Source: an uncultured Myxococcales bacterium
GTDB lineage: Bacteria; Myxococcota_A; UBA9042; DTJE01
NCBI GenBank assembly: GCA_903936705.1
Contig: CAIZWN010000083.1
Span: 156,346-220,345 of the forward strand
Direction of reading: 5' to 3'
Length of the DNA: 64,000 nt
Below are positions 6,302 through 21,472 of this stretch, piece after piece (positions within the stretch are counted from its first letter, which is position 1; each line of letters begins with the position of its first letter). The position numbers were made by a program, and so were the translations under genes. The notes beneath the pieces are model-generated. The model saw only the letters and a program-made list of their open reading frames with translations, had not been told where the DNA came from and ran no database searches.

Positions 6302-6326
6302 GGTTTTTGGCATGGGCTGAATGACC

Positions 6327-6356
6327 TTGGCAGTCCGGTGTACCAAAGGGTATTCT
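6327..6356 (+). promoter_or_regulatory. Probable sigma-70 promoter of the duplicated lipoprotein gene
   Basis: TTGGCA (6327-6332) and TATTCT (6351-6356) are separated by 18 bases in the gap after mlaE, 28 bases before the chosen ATG at 6384. The same -10 hexamer occurs before the Cys-rich lipoprotein gene at 34305. Confidence 0.55.
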
Positions 6357-6383
6357 GCCGTGGTGCGTGGTTTGGAGGTTTTC

Positions 6384-9300
6384 ATGGCCGTGTTTGCGAA
6401 GGCGTTTCGTTGGGTCGCATTTGTGGCTGTCGCGTTTTCGATTGCATGCGGTGGGGTTGATGGACCCACGGCGGACCTGTCGGATGTTCATGAGGTTATC
6501 GACACGGTCGATGTTGCAATTGATGTCGCGGTCGATCTGGCAGATTCATCGGATGCCGGTTCCGACGTCCTGGGCGAGGAGTTGGTTCAGCCGAAGTGCA
6601 GCCCGGAAACGGTTGGGACTGACTGCTCGGCCGAGTGCGCCGGCGCGGAAGCGTGCCAGTATTGCAGGTGCAACACCGAGCTGAACGGCGGCACATGCGA
6701 GGTGGTGGAACGGCCTGACGAGTTTGCCTGTGACGACGGCGACCCATGCAGCCAAGATGATCGATGCGCCTTGGGCGCCTGTGTGCCTGGCACTTCGGTC
6801 TGCGACTGCAGGAAGAGTGTTGACTGCGTACCGCTGGAGGATCGCGATCTTTGCAACGGGACGCTGGTGTGCAACCTGCAAAACTTTCCTTTCAAGTGCG
6901 AGGTGGATCCAGGAACCGTAGTTGTCTGTCCAACGGTGGCGAATTCGGCTTGCATGACCAGCCAGTGCGACCCTGCCACTGGTGCGTGTGCTATGGCTAG
7001 TGCCAACGAGGGACTATCGTGTCCGTTGACTGACAAATGTACTGCAACGGCACAGTGCATCCTGGGAAATTGCGTCAGGTCGACCGACAAGTTGTGCAAC
7101 CCCGACGACAATCCCTGCACCGACGCGATCTGCGACGAGATCAAGGGGTGTGTCCAGGTTGCAAATACGGCAGATTGCGATGATGGGAACAAGTGCACCG
7201 AGAATGATCACTGCGCACTTGGGGTCTGCAAGTCGGGGGCGGAACTGATTTGTGGCGACGGCAACTTCTGCAACGGCATCGAGACGTGCGACAGGGGCAT
7301 CGGGTGTGTCGCCGGGACCGCTGTCAATTGTGATGACAGCATTTCGTGCACCGACGATTCGTGCAGCAACGATCTTGGCAGGTGTGTTCATGCATGGAGG
7401 CTCGACGCGGTCGAGGGACCCAGAGGGGCGGCAAATTGCAGCGACGGCAATGACAACGACTGCGATGGTCTCAAGGACGCTGCCGACCCGGAGTGCCAGT
7501 TCGGCCTTGATTCGGTTAACCCGGTCAGTGGTCCGACAACCGGAGGCACTGTGGTGCAGTTGTTTGGCGCGTCGCTTGGTCTTGTGACGAAAGTGTTTGT
7601 CGATGGCGTCAGGGTCGACGAGTTCTCGTTGCAGTCGGCAAGCATCATAAAAATAGTCATGCCGGCGCATCTGGCGGGCTTCGTGGATTTCAGGGTCGAA
7701 TCGGACGACCTGTCTGTCGATTTGCATGCCGTGTTCCTGTACGTGACGCGCAGCGAGGACCCCGATGTAGTGGCGTCCCTGCTGGGTCCGACGGGTGATG
7801 CCGAGATCGTCGAGGGTACGCCGGGGCCGCTGTACGAGTCCCTGGTCTCGGTGCCTGGAGTGACTGACGTGGTCCCTGTTCCTGCCGGGGCGCTGCTGGG
7901 ACAAATTGGGTATGGCCCTCGCAATTCGGCACCGTGGGTCAATCCGTCATGGGTTTGGTCGAACGCGACCGGTGTCTCAACGGGTTTTGGCACGGTGAAA
8001 TTCTCGGGTTCATTCTCCCCGCAGGTTGGCGGTCTGATGGACGTTGCCGCGCGGTTCTCGATCGATGGCGGAGCGTCGTGGGTCTATGCGGATCAGGATG
8101 GAACCGCGAATGGCTACGCGGCAGCGCAGGCGCTGAAGCTTGTCGTGTTCGGGGCACCGCGGCCTGGCGCCATCGTTATCAACGAGTTGATGTGGATGGG
8201 TTCCTACCAGGACGACTACGACGAGTGGATCGAGCTTAGGAACATGACAGCGGCCCCCTACCGTCTGATTGGCTGGAAGATCACCGGAGCGAAGTACCCT
8301 TCCGGCGACATCGTTCTGGGCGACTCCCCACAGGTCGTGGGGAATGCTGTAATTCCGCCCAACGGGTATTTTCTGATTGCACAGTTCGAGAGATCCAAGT
8401 CGCAGGTCGATGCGCCCCCGGACATCGCGATCCAGCCTGCCAGTATGTCGCAGAAGGTGCTGTCCTTGAAGAACTCGGGGCCTTTTGTATACCAGTTGAA
8501 GGGAGCTGACGGCACTATTGTGGACGAGGTTCACTTCACTGCCTTGGTCGGTTTCCACGATCCGGCGGTCAATGGGCTGCCATCACGTTCCATGGAACGC
8601 AAGGCCGTTCCTGGCAGTGGCATGTTTGATTCGAACTGGCGGACGGCTGCCGTTGCGACCGGCTGGAAGGGCGACCCGTTCCAGGTAAAGAACTTCGGTA
8701 CGCCGCGAGGCCAGAACAGCGACATCCCGCAGTGTGCGAAGGATGACGAGTGCGCTGGGGCCTTTGCGCCGGGGGTTCTGGGACTGTGCCAGCGACCGTT
8801 CTGCCAACTGCCGGCTGGGCGTTGCGGCGGGACTTCGAAGCAGGATGGGGACTCATGTAACGACGGGGACTTGTGCAGCGAGGGAGATCTTTGCCAGTCG
8901 GGCACCTGCGTTGCCGGTGCCAACGTTTGCGGGTGTCGCAAGGATGCGGATTGCGGGCCGCTGGAGGACAACAACCTTTGCAACGGGACGCTGGTGTGCA
9001 ACCTCCTGGTATTCCCCTACGAGTGCGTCGTCGATGCCACAACGATAGTGGCGTGTCCGACGGATCTGGATGGCGATTGCATGACCAACCAGTGTGACCC
9101 GGCTGATGGTTCCTGTTCACAGAAGCCTGCCAATGAAGGGGGCTCATGCGTTCTGTTGGACAGTTGCACGTCGACGGCAGAGTGTTTTGACGGGGCTTGT
9201 ACCAGGAAGACATCAATCCAGTGTGCGGCCGATGAAAATCCTTGCACCGACGCGAGTTGCGACGAGTCGCTGGGTTGCGTCCAGGTCGCGAACACGGCAA

Positions 9301-10310
9301 CGTGCGATGACCTGAACGCATGCACCGAAAATGACTATTGCGACGCCAGCGAGTGCAAATCCGGGTCCCAGAAGGTTTGCATCGACAATCTGTTCTGCAA
9401 CGGTATCGAGACGTGCGATTCGTCAAGCGGGTGCGTCGCTGGCACCGATCAGCTTTGTGATGACAGTAATGCATGCACGGATGATTCGTGCAGCAACTCG
9501 CTTGGCAAGTGCGTGAACACCTGGAGGACCGATGCGGTAGAGGGACCGAGGGGATCGGCAAATTGTACCGACGGTCTGGACAACGATTGCGACAATCTGT
9601 TTGACGCGGTCGACCCCGAGTGTCTGTTCGGACTGGACTCGGTGACCCCTGCCGACGGTCCGACGACCGGAGGGACCATTGCAACGCTGATTGGAGCATC
9701 CCTGGACCTGGTGACTAAGGTCTTCGTGGATGGGGTCGAAGTCGCATTCGACTTCCAGTCATCGACGGCCATCAATGTGACGATGCCGGCACATGCTGCA
9801 GGTGCCGTGGGTTACCGGGTCGAGTCCACAGTCCTCTCTGCTTCGCTTGATGGGGCCTTTATGTACGTGACCCGCAGCGAGGATCCAAGCGTAGTTGCGT
9901 TCCTGCTGGGTCCCCTGGGCGATGCGGAAATTCTGGCAGGCCAGTCGGGGCCGACATACGAGGCGGAAGTTACTGTGGCCGGGCTGACTGACCTGGATCC
10001 TGTACCTGTCGACGCGGTCCTTGGCCAGATGGGATATGGCCCGCGTGATTCGCTGCCCTGGTTCGAGCCATCCTGGATCTGGTCGGATGCTGCAGGTTCA
10101 TCGACCGGGCTTGGTTCCCTGAAGTTCTCGGGCGCCTTCGATGTGCCGATTCCGGGCGTATTTGACGTCGTTGCGCGATTCTCGATCGACGGCGGAGCCT
10201 CATGGGTCTATGCTGACCTGGACGGAACCGCCAATGGCTACGATTCTGTCCAGGCGCTGAAACTTACGGTTCTTGGGACCGCAAGGCCCGGTGCAGTCGT
10301 CGTGAAATAG
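6384..10310 (+). CDS. Giant Cys-rich lipoprotein made of two tandem copies of one multidomain unit
   Basis: 1308 residues from ATG 6384, which follows GGAGGTTTTC. The signal peptide ends in the lipobox FSIAC and is followed by an Asp-rich linker (residues ~30-65). The body is an internal duplication with a period of about 709 residues; CDCRKSVDC at 140 matches CGCRKDADC at 849. Each copy holds CTxDxC/CNGIETCD slime-mould-type cysteine repeats, a DNDCD motif, an IPT/TIG-like domain opening GPTTGGT, and a beta domain with FSIDGGASWVYAD. Copy 1 continues into a lamin-tail-like domain (GAIVINELMW, ~595-710). Copy 2 stops exactly where that domain would begin. Function unknown; probably surface-exposed and disulfide-bonded. 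Confidence 0.85.
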   Translation: MAVFAKAFRWVAFVAVAFSIACGGVDGPTADLSDVHEVIDTVDVAIDVAVDLADSSDAGSDVLGEELVQPKCSPETVGTDCSAECAGAEACQYCRCNTELNGGTCEVVERPDEFACDDGDPCSQDDRCALGACVPGTSVCDCRKSVDCVPLEDRDLCNGTLVCNLQNFPFKCEVDPGTVVVCPTVANSACMTSQCDPATGACAMASANEGLSCPLTDKCTATAQCILGNCVRSTDKLCNPDDNPCTDAICDEIKGCVQVANTADCDDGNKCTENDHCALGVCKSGAELICGDGNFCNGIETCDRGIGCVAGTAVNCDDSISCTDDSCSNDLGRCVHAWRLDAVEGPRGAANCSDGNDNDCDGLKDAADPECQFGLDSVNPVSGPTTGGTVVQLFGASLGLVTKVFVDGVRVDEFSLQSASIIKIVMPAHLAGFVDFRVESDDLSVDLHAVFLYVTRSEDPDVVASLLGPTGDAEIVEGTPGPLYESLVSVPGVTDVVPVPAGALLGQIGYGPRNSAPWVNPSWVWSNATGVSTGFGTVKFSGSFSPQVGGLMDVAARFSIDGGASWVYADQDGTANGYAAAQALKLVVFGAPRPGAIVINELMWMGSYQDDYDEWIELRNMTAAPYRLIGWKITGAKYPSGDIVLGDSPQVVGNAVIPPNGYFLIAQFERSKSQVDAPPDIAIQPASMSQKVLSLKNSGPFVYQLKGADGTIVDEVHFTALVGFHDPAVNGLPSRSMERKAVPGSGMFDSNWRTAAVATGWKGDPFQVKNFGTPRGQNSDIPQCAKDDECAGAFAPGVLGLCQRPFCQLPAGRCGGTSKQDGDSCNDGDLCSEGDLCQSGTCVAGANVCGCRKDADCGPLEDNNLCNGTLVCNLLVFPYECVVDATTIVACPTDLDGDCMTNQCDPADGSCSQKPANEGGSCVLLDSCTSTAECFDGACTRKTSIQCAADENPCTDASCDESLGCVQVANTATCDDLNACTENDYCDASECKSGSQKVCIDNLFCNGIETCDSSSGCVAGTDQLCDDSNACTDDSCSNSLGKCVNTWRTDAVEGPRGSANCTDGLDNDCDNLFDAVDPECLFGLDSVTPADGPTTGGTIATLIGASLDLVTKVFVDGVEVAFDFQSSTAINVTMPAHAAGAVGYRVESTVLSASLDGAFMYVTRSEDPSVVAFLLGPLGDAEILAGQSGPTYEAEVTVAGLTDLDPVPVDAVLGQMGYGPRDSLPWFEPSWIWSDAAGSSTGLGSLKFSGAFDVPIPGVFDVVARFSIDGGASWVYADLDGTANGYDSVQALKLTVLGTARPGAVVVK

Positions 10311-10339: not shown

Positions 10340-11515
10340 ATGAGCAGCCGTTTCCTGCCGGCAGTGGCAGCAGTGCTGATCTCTCTATCCTTGAATTCAT
10401 CGGTGCCGGATCTTGCGGAAGGGCAGTGGGTCCCGGAGGCTGCCGGGGCCGCGCGGAAGAAGGCTTCGTCGAAGGCTCCACCGAAGGCTCCACGTCACGC
10501 ACATGCCGTCCGGTCGGCTGTTCCTTCACCTTCGTTGCCGGATGATCCATCGGTTCCCCTACCCCAGGCCTGGGGGCGTCGCGTTGACGCATTCCTGAAG
10601 GCGGCGCGTCCGGCCCATGGGGCCTTCGTGGCGCTGGACCCAGCTACCGGCAAGGTTCTGGTGTCGGCCGAGTACGCCGCCCCTGGTGCCAGATTCCAGC
10701 ATCCCGCCACCGACGCCGGCTTTCCGGCGGCTTCGGTGTTCAAGATTGTCACGTCCTCGGCTCTGCTGGAGAACACGACGGTTGGTCCGGGCACGACCAC
10801 GTGCTACCACGGCGGGTCGTCATGGCTGGACGTATCGAATATCGCCGACAGCAGGCGCGACAAGGCCTGCCGCACTCTCAGCGCGGCATTTGCCCACAGC
10901 ACAAATGCGATTTTCGGCAAGTTGGCAGTGAAGCATCTGGATGCGGATGTGCTGCTGCGCCAGGCCGAGTCGCTTGGATTCAACCACCAGATTTCGACGG
11001 ATGGGTTGCGTACACGTTCCGTCGCGCACAAGGCACTGGGGGATCTGGCCCTGGCCCGTATGGCGGCAGGCTTCATCAATGCGAACATGTCGCCGCTGGC
11101 CGGCGCGGTCATGGCAGCCATCATCGCGAATGACGGTGTTCGTCCAGCCGGGATTTCCCTGGACGGCGTTCCCGGGACCGAAATGCGTGTCCTGAAGCCC
11201 GAGACTGTCGAGCGTCTGCGTGGCATGATGGTCGAGACCAGCAGCGGCGGCACTGGAACCAAGTATTTTTCGGGCCTGCCTTCTCGATACGGAGGGGGGC
11301 GTGTCGCGGTGAAGTCCGGGACGTTGAACAGCCGCGATGGTTCAGGACTGCACAACACCTGGATGGTCGGCTTCTTTCCGGCCAGCAAGCCGGAATTGGC
11401 TTTTGCGGCGCTGGTTTCCAGCAATGGACCAGGGCCTGTCAAAGCCGGTCACCTGGCACGATGGGCTCTCGAGACATTCGTTACATTGAAGAAGAATCGA
11501 CTTCCCGGGTCCTAG
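10340..11515 (+). CDS. Penicillin-binding protein, transpeptidase domain only
   Basis: 391-residue exported protein with an N-terminal signal or anchor segment, a basic and Pro-rich linker, and a serine transpeptidase domain from about residue 75. All three catalytic motifs are present: SVFK (SxxK), STN (SxN) and KSGT (KTG-type). It lacks the dimerisation domain of class B division or elongation PBPs and any glycosyltransferase domain, so it may be a D,D-transpeptidase for wall modification or a beta-lactam-recognising enzyme. AGGGGGCC precedes the ATG. It lies 29 bases after the giant lipoprotein gene and may share its transcript. It ends 9 bases before the convergent rdgC half. Confidence 0.85.
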   Translation: MSSRFLPAVAAVLISLSLNSSVPDLAEGQWVPEAAGAARKKASSKAPPKAPRHAHAVRSAVPSPSLPDDPSVPLPQAWGRRVDAFLKAARPAHGAFVALDPATGKVLVSAEYAAPGARFQHPATDAGFPAASVFKIVTSSALLENTTVGPGTTTCYHGGSSWLDVSNIADSRRDKACRTLSAAFAHSTNAIFGKLAVKHLDADVLLRQAESLGFNHQISTDGLRTRSVAHKALGDLALARMAAGFINANMSPLAGAVMAAIIANDGVRPAGISLDGVPGTEMRVLKPETVERLRGMMVETSSGGTGTKYFSGLPSRYGGGRVAVKSGTLNSRDGSGLHNTWMVGFFPASKPELAFAALVSSNGPGPVKAGHLARWALETFVTLKKNRLPGS

Positions 11516-11524
11516 GTTTGTCCT

Positions 11525-12064
11525 TCAATGCACCTCCTGGGAGGTGCCATCGATCCATCGTGCTATTGGAGCAGCCTCGGTCGACCATGCATCGACGTCC
11601 AGGCGCAGTCGCATGAACCGTACGAACAGTTCGTGGACCGCGTCCTCCAGTTCGGTGCACAGGCCGGCCTTCTCGGCCATTGCCTCGACCGGATCCAGCG
11701 CCTGGGTTTCGGGCAGCTTTACAGAACGCAACCCCAGCCCGGCTGCATCCAGGACGAACGCGAACTCACGTCCATCCTTGATCAACTGGAGCCGTGCGCG
11801 ACTGACCTTCTTGCCAAGCCGCAGTGACAGCAGCACCTCCTCGGATTGCGTCGGGTCGTCAACTTTCAGGGCGCTCATCTCGCGGGCCGGATTTTCGCCG
11901 TCCAGGGTCAGCGCTCTCTCGAAGAAGACCTCGATTACTTCGCCGTTATCGAGACTGAAGACGCCTTCGTCCCGCGATGAACGGAACATAAGCCACGTCA
12001 GGAACTCGCGTCCCAAAAACGTAGTGCGCCGGATCTTGTCCGCCTGGCTCATTTCGACCATCAC
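11525..12064 (-). CDS. RdgC C-terminal half (split recombination-associated protein)
   Basis: 179-residue protein corresponding to the C-terminal part of RdgC. FLTWLMFRS, then an EEVLLSLRLGKKVSRARLQL segment and a FVLDAAGLGLRSVKLPE segment run in parallel with the LTEW...GKVVTKLAL...LKRLKF region of E. coli RdgC. RdgC is a ring-forming DNA-binding protein that modulates RecA. The start is a GTG at 12064, or the ATG directly after it, overlapping the stop of the N-half gene; GAGGAGG lies just upstream. The assignment is a by-eye family inference from both halves together. Confidence 0.7.
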   Translation of the reverse strand: MMVEMSQADKIRRTTFLGREFLTWLMFRSSRDEGVFSLDNGEVIEVFFERALTLDGENPAREMSALKVDDPTQSEEVLLSLRLGKKVSRARLQLIKDGREFAFVLDAAGLGLRSVKLPETQALDPVEAMAEKAGLCTELEDAVHELFVRFMRLRLDVDAWSTEAAPIARWIDGTSQEVH

Positions 12065-12705
12065 GCTTCCTCCTCGTCGTCCGTCAGCGATCCGCCGGTC
12101 CCGAAGCGGAACGGCAGCAGGTGGAGGGCCTCGATCAATTCGTGTTCGTCCAGGCGCGACTCAAGGACGCCAACGGTATCCAGGGCTCGCAGTTCCAGGC
12201 CCAGGAACTCGTGGCACCGCGTGACGAATTCCTCGCGCACCGCAGCAGACGTGGAGAACAGGCGCAGGCGCCCGGACGTCACGTCCCACACGACGTCAAA
12301 AGCAGATATGGCCGGAATAGCCCTTTTCAGCAGGTCGTGGCGCACCTGTTCGGTAAGCTCGTCCCGTTCCACCCGAGGCATCCTTTCGCGCCTTGTCGCA
12401 GCAAGGTTTTCCTGCAGTCGCTTGCGCACGTACAGCTTCAGCGTCGATGCCGGTACAGTTAATTTGTCCATGCGAAAACAGAACAGAACCAGGGGGTCGA
12501 AGAAGACGTTGCCCTCCAGAAAGGTGGTTTCGAGTGGGTCGTCGAAGACCGTGAAGCCGGCCGCACGGTCGCGACCCACGTCCACGTCGATACCGCCGAT
12601 GCGGCCGCGTACCAGGCCGTCCAGCAGGTCCTGCCGGTGTTCCGGAAGGGGCGATTGGATAACCTGCCAGGAGGAATAGGACATAGTGCTTGTTGCGAAT
12701 CCCAT
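12061..12705 (-). CDS. RdgC N-terminal half (split recombination-associated protein)
   Basis: 214 residues that match the layout of the N-terminal part of RdgC: a beta-rich opening, then the long charged helix region KLYVRKRLQENLAATRRERM and the family-typical LTEQVRHDLLKRAIPAISAF, followed by DVVWDVTSGRLRLFSTS. AAGGAGTTTCC precedes the ATG at 12705. The stop codon overlaps the start of the C-half gene, so the two are translationally coupled and probably form one functional unit. Canonical RdgC is a single chain of about 300 residues. The combined length here, near 390, is larger, with an extra acidic tail (DDEEEA) at the end of this half. Confidence 0.72.
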   Translation of the reverse strand: MGFATSTMSYSSWQVIQSPLPEHRQDLLDGLVRGRIGGIDVDVGRDRAAGFTVFDDPLETTFLEGNVFFDPLVLFCFRMDKLTVPASTLKLYVRKRLQENLAATRRERMPRVERDELTEQVRHDLLKRAIPAISAFDVVWDVTSGRLRLFSTSAAVREEFVTRCHEFLGLELRALDTVGVLESRLDEHELIEALHLLPFRFGTGGSLTDDEEEA

Positions 12706-12758
12706 GGAAACTCCTTTCTCGGACTACCGGACCAGCGCCGGCGAGACCGGCATGGATA

Positions 12759-13205
12759 TCACGAAAGTGGCAGGTCGTGGAGGGGAACTTCGCTTACGGT
12801 AATGATTCTTCGGTCTCCGGGGCCGTCGAACTCGATCTGCACCCACACTGTGACTTCCGCGCCGGCATCTGGAAAACGGTCGGCCCACTCGACCAGGGAC
12901 ACACCGTCCCCTCGTGCGAATTCGTGGAAGCCGATGCCGTCAAGTTCCGCCCCGCGGGCCAGGCGATACAGGTCGAAATGGAAGATGGGAATACTGGCCG
13001 AATAGACGTTCATCAGAGTAAAGGTGGGCGAGCGAACCTGGGCTGGGTCGCCACCAAGTTGCCGGACTGTACCGCGGACGAAGACGGTCTTGCCGGCGCC
13101 CAGAGGTCCAGCGAGACCGATTACGTCACCGGGCTTGAGGCCGGCTGCGACCTGGGCGCCGGCGGTCTCGGTTCCGGCCTCGTCCTGCGTGTGGATCGTG
13201 CGCAT
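12759..13205 (-). CDS. tsaE: tRNA threonylcarbamoyladenosine biosynthesis ATPase
   Basis: P-loop ATPase needed with TsaB and TsaD to make t6A37 in tRNA. The 148 residues carry Walker A GPLGAGKT (about 33-40), then SPTFTLMNVY, HFDLYRL and SLVEWADRF, all diagnostic of the TsaE/YjeE family. It sits 24 bases after greA on the same strand and upstream of the split rdgC, so a greA-tsaE-rdgC operon is likely. Length is normal for the family. Confidence 0.95.
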   Translation of the reverse strand: MRTIHTQDEAGTETAGAQVAAGLKPGDVIGLAGPLGAGKTVFVRGTVRQLGGDPAQVRSPTFTLMNVYSASIPIFHFDLYRLARGAELDGIGFHEFARGDGVSLVEWADRFPDAGAEVTVWVQIEFDGPGDRRIITVSEVPLHDLPLS

Positions 13206-13229: not shown

Positions 13230-13709
13230 TCAGACGTAGGTGACTGTAGTGACCGACAAGTGGCGGATACCGCCGGGCGCCGTGAACTGGATGTCGTCGC
13301 CTTCCTCCTTGCCGATCAGGGCGCGTCCCAGCGGGGCAAGGACCGATATCTTGCCACGGTTGATGTCGGCTTCGGGGTCTCCGACTATCTGGTAGGTGAC
13401 CTCCTCCTGGCGCTCTTCGTCGAAAAGCGTGACAGTCGCCCCGAAGCGGATTTTCGGACCCTCGAAACGACGAGGGTCGATCACTTCGGCACGTCCCAGG
13501 ACGTCCTCCAGTTTGCGGACGTTTGCTTCGAGGATGCCTTGCCGCTCGCGTGCGGCGTGGTATTCGGCGTTCTCGGACAAATCCCCGTGGGCGCGAGCCT
13601 CGCCAATCGCCTTGATGACCAGGGGGCGCTCGTCCTTCCACTTCCTGAGTTCGGATTCCAGACGGACCAGCCCTTCCGGAGTCAATGGGACCCGAATGTC
13701 TTCGGACAT
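13230..13709 (-). CDS. greA: Transcription elongation factor GreA
   Basis: Stimulates RNA cleavage by backtracked RNA polymerase. The 159-residue product has the N-terminal coiled coil with the acidic tip, including ARAHGDLSENAEYHAARERQG, and the C-terminal FKBP-like domain with ISVLAPLGRALIGKEEGDD. AGGAGGCTCCC lies just before the ATG. A TATACT -10 hexamer at 13739-13744 (minus strand) is visible, but no clear -35. It is the first gene of the leftward greA-tsaE-rdgC group and diverges from the histidine kinase gene. Confidence 0.96.
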   Translation of the reverse strand: MSEDIRVPLTPEGLVRLESELRKWKDERPLVIKAIGEARAHGDLSENAEYHAARERQGILEANVRKLEDVLGRAEVIDPRRFEGPKIRFGATVTLFDEERQEEVTYQIVGDPEADINRGKISVLAPLGRALIGKEEGDDIQFTAPGGIRHLSVTTVTYV

Positions 13710-15484: not shown

Positions 15485-18400
15485 TCAGCAGAAGTTTCTT
15501 CCTTCGTGCGGCGGGCCGCCTGACAGTGCGCGGAAACGCTCGGCGCGGATGCTTGTCACCCCTTCGCGGTTCTGGGCCACTCCCTCCACAAGAATGAACG
15601 GTTCAACAGACAGTAGGCGGCGGTTCGCGATGAAGAGATCGGGTGTCACCACCAGGTTGGAAAGGCCAGTTTCGTCCTCCAGGGTGGCGAAGAACATGCC
15701 CTTGGCCGTGTAGGGCCGTTGCCGCACGATGACCATGCCGGCCACGCGCACCCGGCGTCCGTCGGGCACACTGGGCAGGTCTGCGGATCGCAGGGCACCT
15801 GTTCGGTTCAGGCCTGCACGCAAGAAGGCTACAGGGTGGGCGCCGGTGGTTATGCCGGTGCGAGCAAAGTCGGCGGCCATCGCGTCGCGATCTTCCAGGA
15901 CGGGTAGTGCAGGCTCGGGTTCCTCGCGGATCGTCCCTGCCAGCAGGTCCTTTGTGGCCGGCAAAGCAAGGGCCTGCCACATGGCGTTTCGGCGGTCCGT
16001 TCCAAGGGCGCCTGCTTCGGCCAGACCGAAAAGTTCTGCCGACGTGGCGTCCGTGCGCCGTCCCAGGTCCGTGACTCCCAGGAATGGGCCGCTGTCACGT
16101 TCCTGAACGATGCGTTTTCCGGTGCGTTGCGACAGACCCTTGATGTACTTCAGGCCCAGGCGTACGGCCGGGCCCTTCGCTGCTGGCCGTTCAGGCCGAG
16201 CCGTTGCCCCTTCGTAGTCGCCTCCGGACTCCAGCGTGCAGTCCCAGGCCGACAGATTTGCGTCCACTGGTCGTACCTCCACACCGTGACGTACAGCGTC
16301 CCTGACAAGGGTGGACGGGTGGTAGAAGCCCATGGGCCACTGGTCCAGCAGTGCCGCCAGGAAGGCCGCTGGGTGGTGGTGCTTGAGGTACGCGCTGGCG
16401 TAGGCGATCAGGGCGAATGACGCCGAGTGGCTTTCCGGGAAGCCGTACAAGGCGAATGACGCGATGGACTCGACGATGCGATCCTGCGCATCTGGGGCGA
16501 TGCCCCGGGCCGTCATGCCTTCGCGCATCTGGACCACCATTCTTTCCATCTGTTCCTTCGACCGCCTGGAGCCCAGTGCGCGTCGCAGTTCCTCGGCCTG
16601 CCCGCCAGTGAAGCCTGCGACGGTCATTGCCATACGCATCAATTGCTCCTGGAACAGGGGTATTCCGAGTGTGCGGGCAAGAATAGGTTCCAGACACGGG
16701 TCGTCGTAGGTGACAGGCATCCGGCCGGCGCGGCGTGCGAGGTAGGGATGGACCATTTTCCCAACGATCGGGCCGGGACGGATCAGGGCGACCTCCACGA
16801 CCAGGTCATAGAAACGCCGGGGCTTCAGGCGTGGCAAAGTGGCCATCTGGGCTCGGGACTCGACCTGGAACACGCCGACAGTGTCGGCCCGGCGCAGCAT
16901 TTCGTAGGTACCAGGGTCGTCGGGCGGCAGGTGGGCCAGGTCCACATCGACGTGCTCGGCGTGTCGTACGAGTTCGATCGTCTCGCGTAGGACGGCCAGC
17001 ATCCCCAGGCCCAGCAGGTCCACCTTGATGATCCGCTGGTCGCAAAGGTCGTCCTTGTCCCACTGGACGCAGACGCGGCCGGGCATAGCGGCGGGCTCCA
17101 GTGGCACCACGCGGTCCAGGCGCCCCCCGCAAATCACCATGCCTCCGTTGTGTTGCGAGAGGTGCCGCGGCAGGTGCCGGACCGCGCCCCAGAGTTCCAG
17201 GAAGTTGCGAACGCGGGTGTCGGCCACGTCCAGGCCTGCCTCCTTGATGCGCGAGATACGTTCGGCCGGATCCTCGGGGAATTCGAAATGGCCGACCAGG
17301 CCAGCCAGGCGCCCGATGCGTTCCGGGTCAAGGCCCAGGACCTTGCCAATGTCCCTGGCGGCCCCGCGGCCGTGGTACGTGTTGACCGCAGCGGCCATGC
17401 CGACCGAGCGTTCGCCGTAGCGTCCGTACACGTACTGGATGACCTTTTCGCGGTCGTCACCCGAGGGAAGGTCGAGGTCGATGTCCGGCCACTCGCCGCG
17501 CTCCTCGGACAAAAAGCGTTCGAAGAGGAGATCGAAGGCGATGGGGTCAACGGCCGTGATGCCAAGGGAGTAGCAGACTGCGCTGTTGGCCGCGGACCCG
17601 CGTCCCTGGGCCAAAATGCCACTGTCTCGGCAGAAGCGGGCGATGTCGTGAACCAGCAGAAAGTAGCCCGCCAGGTCCAGTTTCTGGATCAAGTCCAGTT
17701 CGTGAGTGACCTGGTGCATAACCCGGGGTGTCACCGGGCGGTAGCGGTCCCGGACGCCCTGCTGGACCAGTTCATGCAGCAGGCTGAATTCGGTTTCACC
17801 GGATGGCGTGGGAAACCTGGGAAACGTGTAGCCAGGGTCGGCCAAGGTGAAGTCCAGGCGCGCAGCGAGACTTGTCGTGGCCGCCAGTACGCCGGGCAGG
17901 TCGGCGAAGCGTTCCGTCATGTCGGCGGCTGACGGGAGGTGGCGCAGGCGGTCGGCCGGCAGCAGGCGGCCGGCGGAGTCGAGGGAAACGTGGTGCCGCA
18001 GGGCCAGCAGGACGTCCAGGACCGGGGCCCGGTCGGGGGTGGCATAGCGGGTGTCGTTGGTGGCGATGCAGGCCAGCCCGAGTGACGATGCCAGGTCGTG
18101 CAGCAGGCGGTTTGCGTGTTCCTCGTCGCGACGGCCGTGGCGTTGCAAATCCAGGGCGACGTTCCGGCGGCCGAAGGTTCCAGCAAGCCGGTCCGCCACA
18201 TCCCGGGCGGCCTCGCGACCGGCCGCACGGGCGGCCGCGATCACAGGTCCGTCCAGGCCGCCGGCCACCGCTATCAGGCCGCCGGAGAAGCGTTCGAGAT
18301 GTTCCTGCGTGGCCAGACAGTCACCCTTTTCGCGGCCGCGGTGGGCCTCTGTCAACAGTTCGCACAGGTTTGCCCAGCCATCACGATCGCGGCACAGCAG

Positions 18401-18868
18401 CAGCAGCCTGGGGCGGCCGGCGCCAGGGGACGTTGGAGGCAGCGTGGCTGCCTGGTCGGGGCGGACGGGAGATCCGCCTAGCAGTGTTGGGGTTGGGCGG
18501 GCGCGTGAAGGGGAAGAATCCGGCGTGGTCAGGCCGGCTGATCTGCCCGAGCCGTCTGTACCTGCAGCCAACCGCGGGGCTCCAGTGCCACCAGAACCGG
18601 TTGCCGGACCTCCTCCACCAGCGCTCAGCATGTCGCCAAGATCCAGCGGAACGGTGGCGCCCAGCAGGGGGCGGATACCGGCGGCCCTGGCCGCCTTGAC
18701 GAACCGGGGTATCCCGTAAACCCCGCCGAGGTCCGCCAACGCCATGGTCGGGTGCCCCAGTTCGGCCGCTCGGGTTACCAGATCCTCGGGCAGGGACGCA
18801 GCCTCCAGGAACCTAAATGCGCTGGAGGCCCGCAGCTCAATCCATGGGGGAGTTCCGCCGTTTGCCAT
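15485..18868 (-). CDS. dnaE2: Error-prone DNA polymerase DnaE2 (ImuC)
   Basis: Catalytic subunit of the ImuA-ImuB-DnaE2 translesion mutasome. The 1127 residues begin with a PHP domain (LRASSAFRFLEAASLPEDLV, then MALADLGGVYGIPRFVKAA). A C-family polymerase core follows, with catalytic Asp residues in WPDIDLDLPSGDD near 462 and the helix-hairpin-helix region FLGVTDLGRRTDATSAELF. A C-terminal OB fold includes VRVAGMVIVRQRPYTAKGM. Residues ~80-150 are a Gly/Pro/Ser-rich low-complexity insertion, unusual for the PHP region. It starts 54 bases after imuB, and the whole run is under the SOS promoter at 21473-21501. It converges with the histidine kinase gene. Confidence 0.95.
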   Translation of the reverse strand: MANGGTPPWIELRASSAFRFLEAASLPEDLVTRAAELGHPTMALADLGGVYGIPRFVKAARAAGIRPLLGATVPLDLGDMLSAGGGGPATGSGGTGAPRLAAGTDGSGRSAGLTTPDSSPSRARPTPTLLGGSPVRPDQAATLPPTSPGAGRPRLLLLCRDRDGWANLCELLTEAHRGREKGDCLATQEHLERFSGGLIAVAGGLDGPVIAAARAAGREAARDVADRLAGTFGRRNVALDLQRHGRRDEEHANRLLHDLASSLGLACIATNDTRYATPDRAPVLDVLLALRHHVSLDSAGRLLPADRLRHLPSAADMTERFADLPGVLAATTSLAARLDFTLADPGYTFPRFPTPSGETEFSLLHELVQQGVRDRYRPVTPRVMHQVTHELDLIQKLDLAGYFLLVHDIARFCRDSGILAQGRGSAANSAVCYSLGITAVDPIAFDLLFERFLSEERGEWPDIDLDLPSGDDREKVIQYVYGRYGERSVGMAAAVNTYHGRGAARDIGKVLGLDPERIGRLAGLVGHFEFPEDPAERISRIKEAGLDVADTRVRNFLELWGAVRHLPRHLSQHNGGMVICGGRLDRVVPLEPAAMPGRVCVQWDKDDLCDQRIIKVDLLGLGMLAVLRETIELVRHAEHVDVDLAHLPPDDPGTYEMLRRADTVGVFQVESRAQMATLPRLKPRRFYDLVVEVALIRPGPIVGKMVHPYLARRAGRMPVTYDDPCLEPILARTLGIPLFQEQLMRMAMTVAGFTGGQAEELRRALGSRRSKEQMERMVVQMREGMTARGIAPDAQDRIVESIASFALYGFPESHSASFALIAYASAYLKHHHPAAFLAALLDQWPMGFYHPSTLVRDAVRHGVEVRPVDANLSAWDCTLESGGDYEGATARPERPAAKGPAVRLGLKYIKGLSQRTGKRIVQERDSGPFLGVTDLGRRTDATSAELFGLAEAGALGTDRRNAMWQALALPATKDLLAGTIREEPEPALPVLEDRDAMAADFARTGITTGAHPVAFLRAGLNRTGALRSADLPSVPDGRRVRVAGMVIVRQRPYTAKGMFFATLEDETGLSNLVVTPDLFIANRRLLSVEPFILVEGVAQNREGVTSIRAERFRALSGGPPHEGRNFC

Positions 18869-18922
18869 GATCGGATCTTGCTCCTTGCCAGGCGGGCGTA
18901 TTTCTGACCCCGCCTGGCAGCG

Positions 18923-20455
18923 TCAGTCGTACTGACCGTCCACGAACCAGCGGCCCGTCCCAAGCTCATGCCACAATCGGTACAGTCCGTGTCCCGGGAT
19001 CTCGATGTCCCAGCATGCTCCTGCTTCCGGTGTTTCCGTCCACCACCTTGCCTCGGCGTACCAGGGGCCCGCGGCTCGCGTCACGACGCCCGAGGGTCCG
19101 TCGCCCCGGACGTCGGCAGGCCGGCCCGCCCGCAGTCGGACCGCCACCTCCAGCGGGGGTCGGAATCGCCGAAGGGCGAGGGGGGGCGCCGTCTGGCCCT
19201 TACCGCCCGGCAGGGTGGGGCAGGGGGAACGGATTTCTGGGAGGGCCCGTGGCGCAAACGGGGCCAGGGAGGTCGGGTCGGCGCCGGCACCGTCAAGGAC
19301 CACGGGCGCGCCGACGTCGTTAGGTCCGGCCAGGGCGCCCAGACGACCTACCAGGATGGCCAGTCGTGACGGTGGCGTGACCGGCGGCCCGAACAGATGG
19401 CCTTGCCCGCCGGCCACACGACCGCCATCGGCCCGCAGTACGAAGCCCCGAACAGGGTGGGGCGGCGGGTCGGCCTCGATAGCCAGTCGGACCAGGGCCA
19501 GCAGGGATCGCAGATCGCCGGTTGGTGCCTGCGGCGATACTGGTACGGCGTGGGTGCCATCCGGGTCAAGGACCAGTTCCAGCCGCAGGGCTCGTGGCAC
19601 CATCCCCCTGTCCTGAAGGCGCGCGGACACTCGGTCAAGGGCCGCGGACAGCAGGAAGATCAGGGGTTCCACGCTGTCCAGGGTCCATTCCAGTTCCACT
19701 GCTTCCTCGAACGATTCCGAGGGAGGCAGAGGTGTGATCACCGATTCGTCGATCCCCCGGGCCAGTCGGTGACGGTCCATCCCCTCGGGACCCAGGCGGA
19801 TCCCAAGTCCTCGCTGGTCGATGCGGGCCAGGTCTCCGAGGGTGCACAGGCCCAGGTGGGCCAGTGTGTCCGCCAGGGCGGGAGATGGATCCAGTGCGGC
19901 AATCGGCAGGTCAGCTGCGGCCTCGGCCTCGCCTCCCGGGGGCAGGACCGTGACGCCCGGCCGGGCTCGTGCTGCTATTCGGGCCAGGCGCGGACCACGT
20001 GCGATACCGATCCTGACCCGGAGTGATGCCCTGGCACATGCGGCTTCCAGGGCGCATCCCAGAGCCTCGGGCGTGGGGTAGCGGCCCCTGGTCCCACGCG
20101 TGTCCAGCACCACGGCATCAGCATCCCGAGGTTCGACGTCGGGAGAAAAGGCGAGCGCCGCGTCCACCAGGGCCTGCCTGGCAGCCTCGACCACCGCTGG
20201 GGCGACGTGTCGCAGCACCACGGAAGGGGCAACCGATCTGGCCTGGGCAGGGGTCATGCCTGGCACAGCGCCCAGGGCAAGTGCGCCTCGGGAGGCGTGG
20301 ACCAGGACGGCCCTTGTTCCCTCGCCAGCCATCACGGCCAGGGGCAGGCCAGCGAGGTCTGGTTCGGACCGCAGCAGTGCCTGCAGTGGCAACGCCGTTG
20401 CCAGGACGCAGGCGTATTCGCGCGGCAGCACCCGTCTGTTAGCCGCCGGCTTCAT
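18923..20455 (-). CDS. imuB: ImuB, inactive Y-family polymerase-like scaffold of the mutasome
   Basis: Links ImuA and DnaE2 to the sliding clamp during SOS mutagenesis. The 510-residue protein keeps the Y-family fold (RVRIGIARGPRLARIAARA, LGLCTLGDLARI) but its first motif reads CVLATALPLQALL, without the metal-binding Asp of active polymerases. That is the hallmark of ImuB. QGHLFG near residue 348 resembles a beta-clamp binding peptide. The C-terminal region ends in WDIEIPGHGLYRLWHEL and GRWFVDGQYD, a typical ImuB tail. Its ATG overlaps the imuA stop (ATGA), so the two are translationally coupled. Confidence 0.93.
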   Translation of the reverse strand: MKPAANRRVLPREYACVLATALPLQALLRSEPDLAGLPLAVMAGEGTRAVLVHASRGALALGAVPGMTPAQARSVAPSVVLRHVAPAVVEAARQALVDAALAFSPDVEPRDADAVVLDTRGTRGRYPTPEALGCALEAACARASLRVRIGIARGPRLARIAARARPGVTVLPPGGEAEAAADLPIAALDPSPALADTLAHLGLCTLGDLARIDQRGLGIRLGPEGMDRHRLARGIDESVITPLPPSESFEEAVELEWTLDSVEPLIFLLSAALDRVSARLQDRGMVPRALRLELVLDPDGTHAVPVSPQAPTGDLRSLLALVRLAIEADPPPHPVRGFVLRADGGRVAGGQGHLFGPPVTPPSRLAILVGRLGALAGPNDVGAPVVLDGAGADPTSLAPFAPRALPEIRSPCPTLPGGKGQTAPPLALRRFRPPLEVAVRLRAGRPADVRGDGPSGVVTRAAGPWYAEARWWTETPEAGACWDIEIPGHGLYRLWHELGTGRWFVDGQYD

Positions 20456-21381
20456 GCCGAATCCTTCAAACTGCCGGGAGACTGGTCGTGGTGCGCCTGG
20501 GAAGCGCCCACGGAATTTGCACTTGAATGTGTTTTGGATGTGACTGCCTGGTACGTGTTGGGACGAGGTCGCGAACTGGCTGCCAGGTGAGCACTGGAAT
20601 GCGGTTGCGAATTGGCCGCCAGGTGTGCGTTGGAATGCGGTCGTGGCGAGACTGTGGCCCAGTCGCCGCGTTCCAGGGCATCAGCCACCGACAGGCAAAG
20701 GTTTGTGGAGCCTTCGTCGGCTTCCACAGCAACCTCGGCCCCCACCAGGAGGCAACCTGGCCCTGGCATGCCCGCCCAGCGGCCACGTAGTGTGCCCAGG
20801 TGGACCACGACGCCGCCGGCCGCCGCCGCCGTCCCGCCCCGATCCAGGACCAGCAGGACGGTGCGTCCCCGCTCGGCTCCCCGGGCCAGGCGAATCCAGC
20901 CTGCCGCCGCCCCATTCGAGCCTGCTGCCGGCCAAGCCGACCCCGTCCGTGTCGACCTGTCTGGCGGGCGGACCACTGTAACGGCGAAATCGCCAGCCCC
21001 CAGGACTTCCTCGGCGGCCGAGAGCGTTGCGTCCAGGGACAGTGGCCCCCGGACCCACAGGACCCTCGACAAGTCTGCTCCGGCCGCAGCCAGCGAGGCT
21101 GGGTCCAGCGAGGCGTCTCCATCGATCCACGCAGCCGTCCGTCCTTGTGCCGTGGTGGCAGCCACGGCCGCCATCGCCATGGTAGTCCTGCCGGCCGCGC
21201 CGGGTGCCCCAGCCCGCAAAACAGCCATTCGCCCCCTGGGCCAACCGCCGCCCAGCAACCCGTCCAGTGCCGGCATGCCAGTGGTTCGGCAGGGAAGCGT
21301 CTCGCGTGGCGCCGACGCTCGGCGAACCCAGCCCGACGGCAGGTCCTTCAGCACCCTCGCAACGGCCTCTTGTGAATTCAT
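20452..21381 (-). CDS. imuA: ImuA, RecA-like accessory protein of the mutasome
   Basis: RecA/SulA-like partner of ImuB. The 309-residue protein from ATG 21381 (AAGGCGGGAC upstream) has the family opening CRTTGMPALDGLLGGGWPRGR and the degenerate P-loop region GAPGAAGRTTMAMA. A strand with AAWIDGDASLDP follows, then a RecA-core remnant rich in LLVLDRGG. The last ~65 residues are an unusual low-complexity tail of imperfect repeats of the type HSSAHLAASSRP. First gene of the SOS operon; overlaps imuB by 4 bases. Confidence 0.9.
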   Translation of the reverse strand: MNSQEAVARVLKDLPSGWVRRASAPRETLPCRTTGMPALDGLLGGGWPRGRMAVLRAGAPGAAGRTTMAMAAVAATTAQGRTAAWIDGDASLDPASLAAAGADLSRVLWVRGPLSLDATLSAAEEVLGAGDFAVTVVRPPDRSTRTGSAWPAAGSNGAAAGWIRLARGAERGRTVLLVLDRGGTAAAAGGVVVHLGTLRGRWAGMPGPGCLLVGAEVAVEADEGSTNLCLSVADALERGDWATVSPRPHSNAHLAANSQPHSSAHLAASSRPRPNTYQAVTSKTHSSANSVGASQAHHDQSPGSLKDSA

Positions 21382-21472
21382 GTCCCGCCTTGCGCGACCG
21401 TCCCGTTTCGGGAGGTTGCTTCCTGGGCCTGGCAACGGCCAGCGTCGGACGAATCCGATTCAACCCAGGCTT

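Follow-up and report, generated by a model that had tools for sequence, protein, structure and literature searches.

Introduction

RdgC of Escherichia coli is a single-chain, DNA-encircling protein whose canonical form is a homodimeric ring with a DNA-sized pore. It binds DNA non-specifically and inhibits RecA, according to two papers (PMC9713433, PMC11077077). In the second of these, the protein is divided into a base domain and a centre domain, the latter carrying an inserted tip of two helices; base and tip form the two contacts of the ring. The same two-domain scaffold is found in lambda RexA and in Iml3-Chl4 (CENP-L/CENP-N), the latter being a heterodimer that holds DNA (PMC11077077). A likewise divergent, non-canonical RdgC fold is described in PMC11390915 for the RdgC-like proteins of RdgC-histone operons of Bacillus and Halobacteria; each is a single chain extended by small additional domains at the termini, and its gene has those of a histone and a membrane protein as neighbours.

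We analysed a gene pair in a 64,000-nt stretch of DNA from an uncultured Myxococcales bacterium (the window), which a preliminary description made from the sequence had read as a natural RdgC of two subunits. The results support this reading, the break being conserved and the two products being RdgC-like, A by Pfam and B by profile comparison and fold. We consider, with a probability of about 0.86, that the products of genes A and B constitute an RdgC of two subunits, probably forming an A2B2 ring around DNA. In RexA and Iml3-Chl4 both domains reside in each subunit, whereas here the two domains of RdgC are carried by separate chains (comparison with PMC11077077).

Results

Organization of the gene pair

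The features of the locus are as follows.

11525..12061, minus strand: gene B, candidate RdgC base-domain subunit (C-terminal half), ORF of 178 aa from ATG
11525..12064, minus strand: gene B from the alternative start GTG at 12064, ORF of 179 aa
12061..12064, minus strand: stop/start overlap, with A's TGA at 12063-12061 and B's ATG at 12061, read from the sequence
12061..12705, minus strand: gene A, candidate RdgC centre and tip subunit (N-terminal half), ORF of 214 aa from ATG
12069..12075, minus strand: putative Shine-Dalgarno-like GAGGAGG of gene B, within the 3' end of A, read from the sequence
12711..12717, minus strand: putative Shine-Dalgarno-like AAAGGAG of gene A, read from the sequence
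12759..13205, minus strand: tsaE (Pfam TsaE, 112.5 bits), upstream of A in the same direction with a gap of 53 nt, not in the complex
13230..13709, minus strand: greA (Pfam GreA_GreB domains), upstream neighbour in the same direction, not in the complex

Two minus-strand genes overlapping at stop and start, each with its own ribosome binding site, had been reported, and we indeed found both ORFs, meeting at TGATG, and both putative sites. The junction reads GTGATG, and one base is common to the TGA of A and the ATG of B. The motif AAAGGAG (12717-12711) lies 5 nt 5' of the ATG of gene A. Upstream of gene B, GAGGAGG (12075-12069) precedes the ATG at 12061 by 7 nt and the GTG at 12064 by only 4 nt, and this spacing makes the ATG the likelier start.

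The greA-tsaE setting had been regarded as unusual for rdgC. It is real, since these genes lie upstream of A in 11/11 loci of the window's family, but it is limited to that family (0/69 other loci); it is thus a family trait and no guide to function. On the other side of the pair, a gene for a protein with a penicillin-binding transpeptidase domain (10340-11515, plus strand) converges on gene B; in 7 of the 11 loci of the family, a relative is encoded downstream of A and B.

Gene A corresponds to the N-terminal half of RdgC

We compared the product of gene A with the RdgC models of Pfam and NCBIfam. It belongs to Pfam RdgC (PF04381) with 34.2 bits for a cut-off of 25, and the match covers profile positions 62-157 of 298, that is, the N-terminal half only, in agreement with the region first proposed for this gene. 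A phmmer comparison with 2owl gave E = 5.7e-4 and, when profiles were compared, the A profile aligned to the N-half of the full RdgC profile with P = 3.4e-16. Gene A is the sole RdgC match in its genome. With the NCBIfam RdgC models, whose cut-offs range from 227 to 501 bits, A falls far below the threshold (34.4 bits against 227 for PRK00321), suggesting that its function may have diverged.

Gene B is a previously unrecognised C-terminal half

Gene B matches no family in Pfam or NCBIfam, and its 76 aligned relatives gave no consistent Pfam match in any of them. We therefore relied on a deeper-profile comparison and a fold search to place it. A profile built from 136 B sequences aligned colinearly with the C-half of RdgC (P = 3.8e-5, hhalign probability 71%). 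A shallower B profile reached a probability of only 0.8% against the lone E. coli RdgC sequence, and a profile search of the PDB sequences with B retrieved 0 chains; the sequence link is weak by itself. For the window's B, AlphaFold2 gave a model with a pLDDT of 92.6, whose top Foldseek match among solved structures is RdgC (2owl, E = 4e-4). With a second aligner the Z scores are 9.5 for 2owy (residues 170-306) and 8.4 for 2owl (167-302), the next row being at 3.7. The predicted fold of B is therefore that of the C-terminal base domain of RdgC, and the earlier assignment of the second gene to the C-terminal region stands on profile and fold, the Pfam search of B being negative.

B is a defined family without earlier description, present in many genomes of Myxococcota, Desulfobacterota and Planctomycetota. 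A scan with the B alignment, one genome per species, gave 177 relatives; the best 80 of the 177, which were kept, fall in Myxococcota, Desulfobacterota, Planctomycetota, Bdellovibrionota and candidate division BRC1 according to record titles, which are fallible for metagenome bins. The titles of three loci, L141 (Klebsiella pneumoniae), L129 (Anaeromyxobacter dehalogenans) and L194 (Betaproteobacteria), do not fit the placement of their sequences, and these look like mislabelled metagenome bins.

In a plasmid record of Nitratidesulfovibrio vulgaris (pDsulf-L2-2), A carries the name RdgC, while B is entered as a hypothetical protein. In the split pair, half of the protein may be overlooked when only A is annotated as RdgC, and purifying or deleting only the annotated gene would amount to studying the ring minus its base. 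On this plasmid the split genes are flanked on one side by a DNA cytosine methyltransferase and on the other by a SAVED / Mov34 / ThiF set, which resembles a defence island.

The whole protein folds as RdgC

We also modelled a natural A-B fusion of 369 aa (L190), a distant relative that stands here for the whole fold in place of the window's own pair. The model, made from a 54-row alignment, has a pLDDT of 92.2 and a pTM of 0.88. Foldseek matched it to 2owl and 2owy with E values of 6e-17 and 1.3e-15, and the second comparison gave Z scores of 21.6 and 21.5 over 288 residues, model residues 4-348 lying on RdgC 1-302, with the next best at 6.9. Structural rows with Z below 8 (kinetochore proteins and others) were not counted as relatives; CENP-L, for example, has Z = 6.9 with the fusion model, in a range possible for a common arrangement. 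The centre-tip-base fold of 2OWL and 2OWY is thus found in the natural fusion and, for the base, in the window's B. The A/B boundary of the fusion lies near residue 200 of 369 and falls at the junction of centre and base, so that A corresponds to centre and tip and B to the base; a break between the domains had been postulated, and this is where it is placed.

The pair therefore belongs to the RdgC superfamily by Pfam and fold. Compared with RdgC of E. coli and Pseudomonas aeruginosa (2OWL, 2OWY; PF04381), fold and order are the same over 288 residues and A is above the Pfam cut-off. The differences are that the pair consists of two polypeptides, with about 17% identity, scores below the NCBIfam cut-offs (for the natural fusion, 42.8 against 227 bits) and, for the A half, a separate clade. 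Since the NCBIfam cut-offs are not reached, the protein is not a single chain and the canonical clade stands apart, we regard the pair as a two-subunit RdgC variant and not as canonical RdgC.

The break is conserved and both genes are under selection

If a single RdgC gene had been broken by a frameshift arising in sequencing or assembly, two ORFs in order and almost touching could result, and one-ORF forms do exist in other lineages. Among related genomes, gene A was found in 47/52 and gene B in 48/52; 36 of 38 loci have both genes, always as separate ORFs with A preceding B on the same strand (alignment A1 is without L022, alignment A2 without L004 and L025). Persistence of the break in relatives had been set beforehand as a test of the proposal, and here the proposal held. 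Within the genus, dN/dS values of about 0.1 (A) and 0.06-0.08 (B) indicate purifying selection on both. This conservation across the class, together with the selection, is beyond chance. The same break thus occurs in independent genomes (and, in the wider set described below, 101 loci are split and 20 fused out of 121), B has its own start and a putative ribosome-binding site, and both ORFs are maintained by selection. We consider the probability of a frameshift negligible, this explanation being ruled out by the conserved break.

At the level of the phylum, 282 genomes were surveyed. A is present in 164 and B in 165; 164 have both, none has A only and one has B only. Neither gene was found in 117 of the 282, so the pair is dispensable. 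The matches listed cover at least 149 of the 165 genomes with B and at least 149 of the 164 with A, and 135 genomes for both genes; among them, A and B are adjacent, A then B on one strand, in 133 of the 135, and lie on different contigs in the two others (G020 and G145). Among the matches listed, 14 genomes appear with A only and 14 with B only; counted over the full genomes, these have both genes except G010. A search of the 282 genomes with Pfam RdgC matched 108, always inside profile positions 5-176, showing that the Pfam model sees only the N-terminal half.

We then examined 110 loci, of which 30 were chosen by A (B adjoins in 30/30, L122 being partial) and 80 by B (A adjoins in 74). In 104 of the loci A is followed by B on the same strand, and in four of these the two form one ORF. 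In the six loci with B away from A, A is elsewhere in the genome for five; in genome G287, B is present and no A was found.

Split and fused forms interchange

One continuous gene in related genomes had been named as the observation that would speak against a natural split. Such genes do exist, but as repeated natural fusions in other phyla, and they do not count against it. Among Desulfobacterota, 90/198 genomes matched; 53 places cover both halves in one frame, 25 of them stop-free. Among Planctomycetota, 41/199 genomes matched, with split and fused forms. By record titles, A-B fusions occur in at least three phyla. Phage records searched with the fused protein gave no match.

From 131 loci (L001, L123-L202, L270-L319), we retained the 121 in which both halves are long enough; 101 are split and 20 fused. 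The tree of these loci (fasttree, unrooted, with long branches) requires at least six changes of state, three of which are forced by well-supported branches. The recurrence of fused genes in other phyla thus indicates that split and fused forms interchange, which favours the two-subunit reading, and the pair shows repeated switching between two states of one machine. A second tree, limited to the A half (55 selected loci, together with 14 of the 31 canonical sequences; quick search, unrooted, long branches), separates canonical RdgC, as a clade with good support, from every A-B protein, whether split or fused.

A protein annotated as RdgC on plasmid pGSUB1 of Geoalkalibacter subterraneus (Desulfobacterota) belongs to the same family, a single ORF containing both A and B; it is fused, unlike the pair in the window, and its B part had not been recognised as a separate family. 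A search of the open-access literature yielded no paper describing an RdgC that is split or made of two subunits. The split is common to many bacteria, and the two-subunit form of the known RdgC is apparently undescribed.

Two genomes carry more than one copy. G032 (Myxococcota) has a split pair (L146, contig C189) and a divergent fused copy (L195, contig C33). G428, found in the Desulfobacterota search, has nine separate A-B profile matches, several of which are divergent and lie on different contigs; the family is expanded there.

It could also be proposed that A is an RdgC-like protein acting alone, B being a neighbour that shares the fold and has another job. B matches no family, the presence of greA and tsaE nearby points to a mixed operon, and RexA and CENP-L/N have the RdgC scaffold without the function of RdgC (PMC11077077). 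This explanation is nevertheless difficult to reconcile with the near-perfect co-occurrence of the genes (164 and 165 of 282), which is kept where they are unlinked, and with the natural A-B fusions; moreover, A by itself lacks the base, which in the known ring holds the structure together. We judge it improbable, and B as an unrelated neighbour is disfavoured by co-occurrence, fusions and fold.

A proposed two-subunit ring

Joint inheritance, halves that fold as the halves of RdgC and fusions in the same order elsewhere are all computed here. On the two-subunit reading, A would bind B by the contact that is internal to the single chain of E. coli RdgC, as suggested by the packing in the fusion model. 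Two B subunits would join at the base and two A subunits at the tips, closing the A2B2 ring; DNA would sit in its pore, and the ring may restrict the access of RecA as E. coli RdgC does.

The overlap had also been taken as a sign of translational coupling. In the window this is plausible because of the TGATG junction, and ribosomes finishing A probably aid the translation of B. It is not a general rule: only 13 of the 101 split pairs overlap, the genes being separated by 0-30 nt in 57, by 31-100 nt in 22 and by more than 100 nt in 9, and in some genomes they are unlinked.

As the seam between centre and base is non-covalent, it would offer an extra possible opening point in the ring. A further and rather doubtful proposal is that the heterotetrameric RdgC ring opens at this seam between A and B, so that the arms formed by A part from the B2 base and rejoin it around DNA without free ends, and that the two-part form is the older one, E. 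coli RdgC being one of several later fusions. Since base and arms can be supplied separately, the split form also gives direct experimental access to the loading of a closed ring onto circular DNA.

A two-subunit complex with the RdgC fold could instead have a role besides RecA control, for example in countering restriction, in excluding phages in the manner of RexA, or in packing the nucleoid like the RdgC-like proteins encoded with histones. The A-B family forms a clade separate from canonical RdgC on a long branch, the plasmid copy adjoins the DNA methyltransferase and the SAVED/Mov34/ThiF genes, and RexA and the RdgC-like proteins occur in other settings. The copy in the window, in contrast, is chromosomal, single and beside housekeeping genes, which suits a core role in DNA maintenance, and we estimate such a different role to be unlikely, at perhaps one chance in four.

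Other features of the window

Close to the RdgC pair, the region 15485-21435 (minus strand) encodes a DnaE-type polymerase (Pfam) after two ORFs, 18923-20455 and 20452-21435. These two resemble a Y-family ImuB-like and an ImuA-like protein, respectively, and the region would then be a possible ImuA-ImuB-DnaE2 mutagenesis cassette. On the plus strand, 6321-10310 encodes a secreted-looking protein of 1329 aa with two long similar halves and with TIG and lamin-tail domains.
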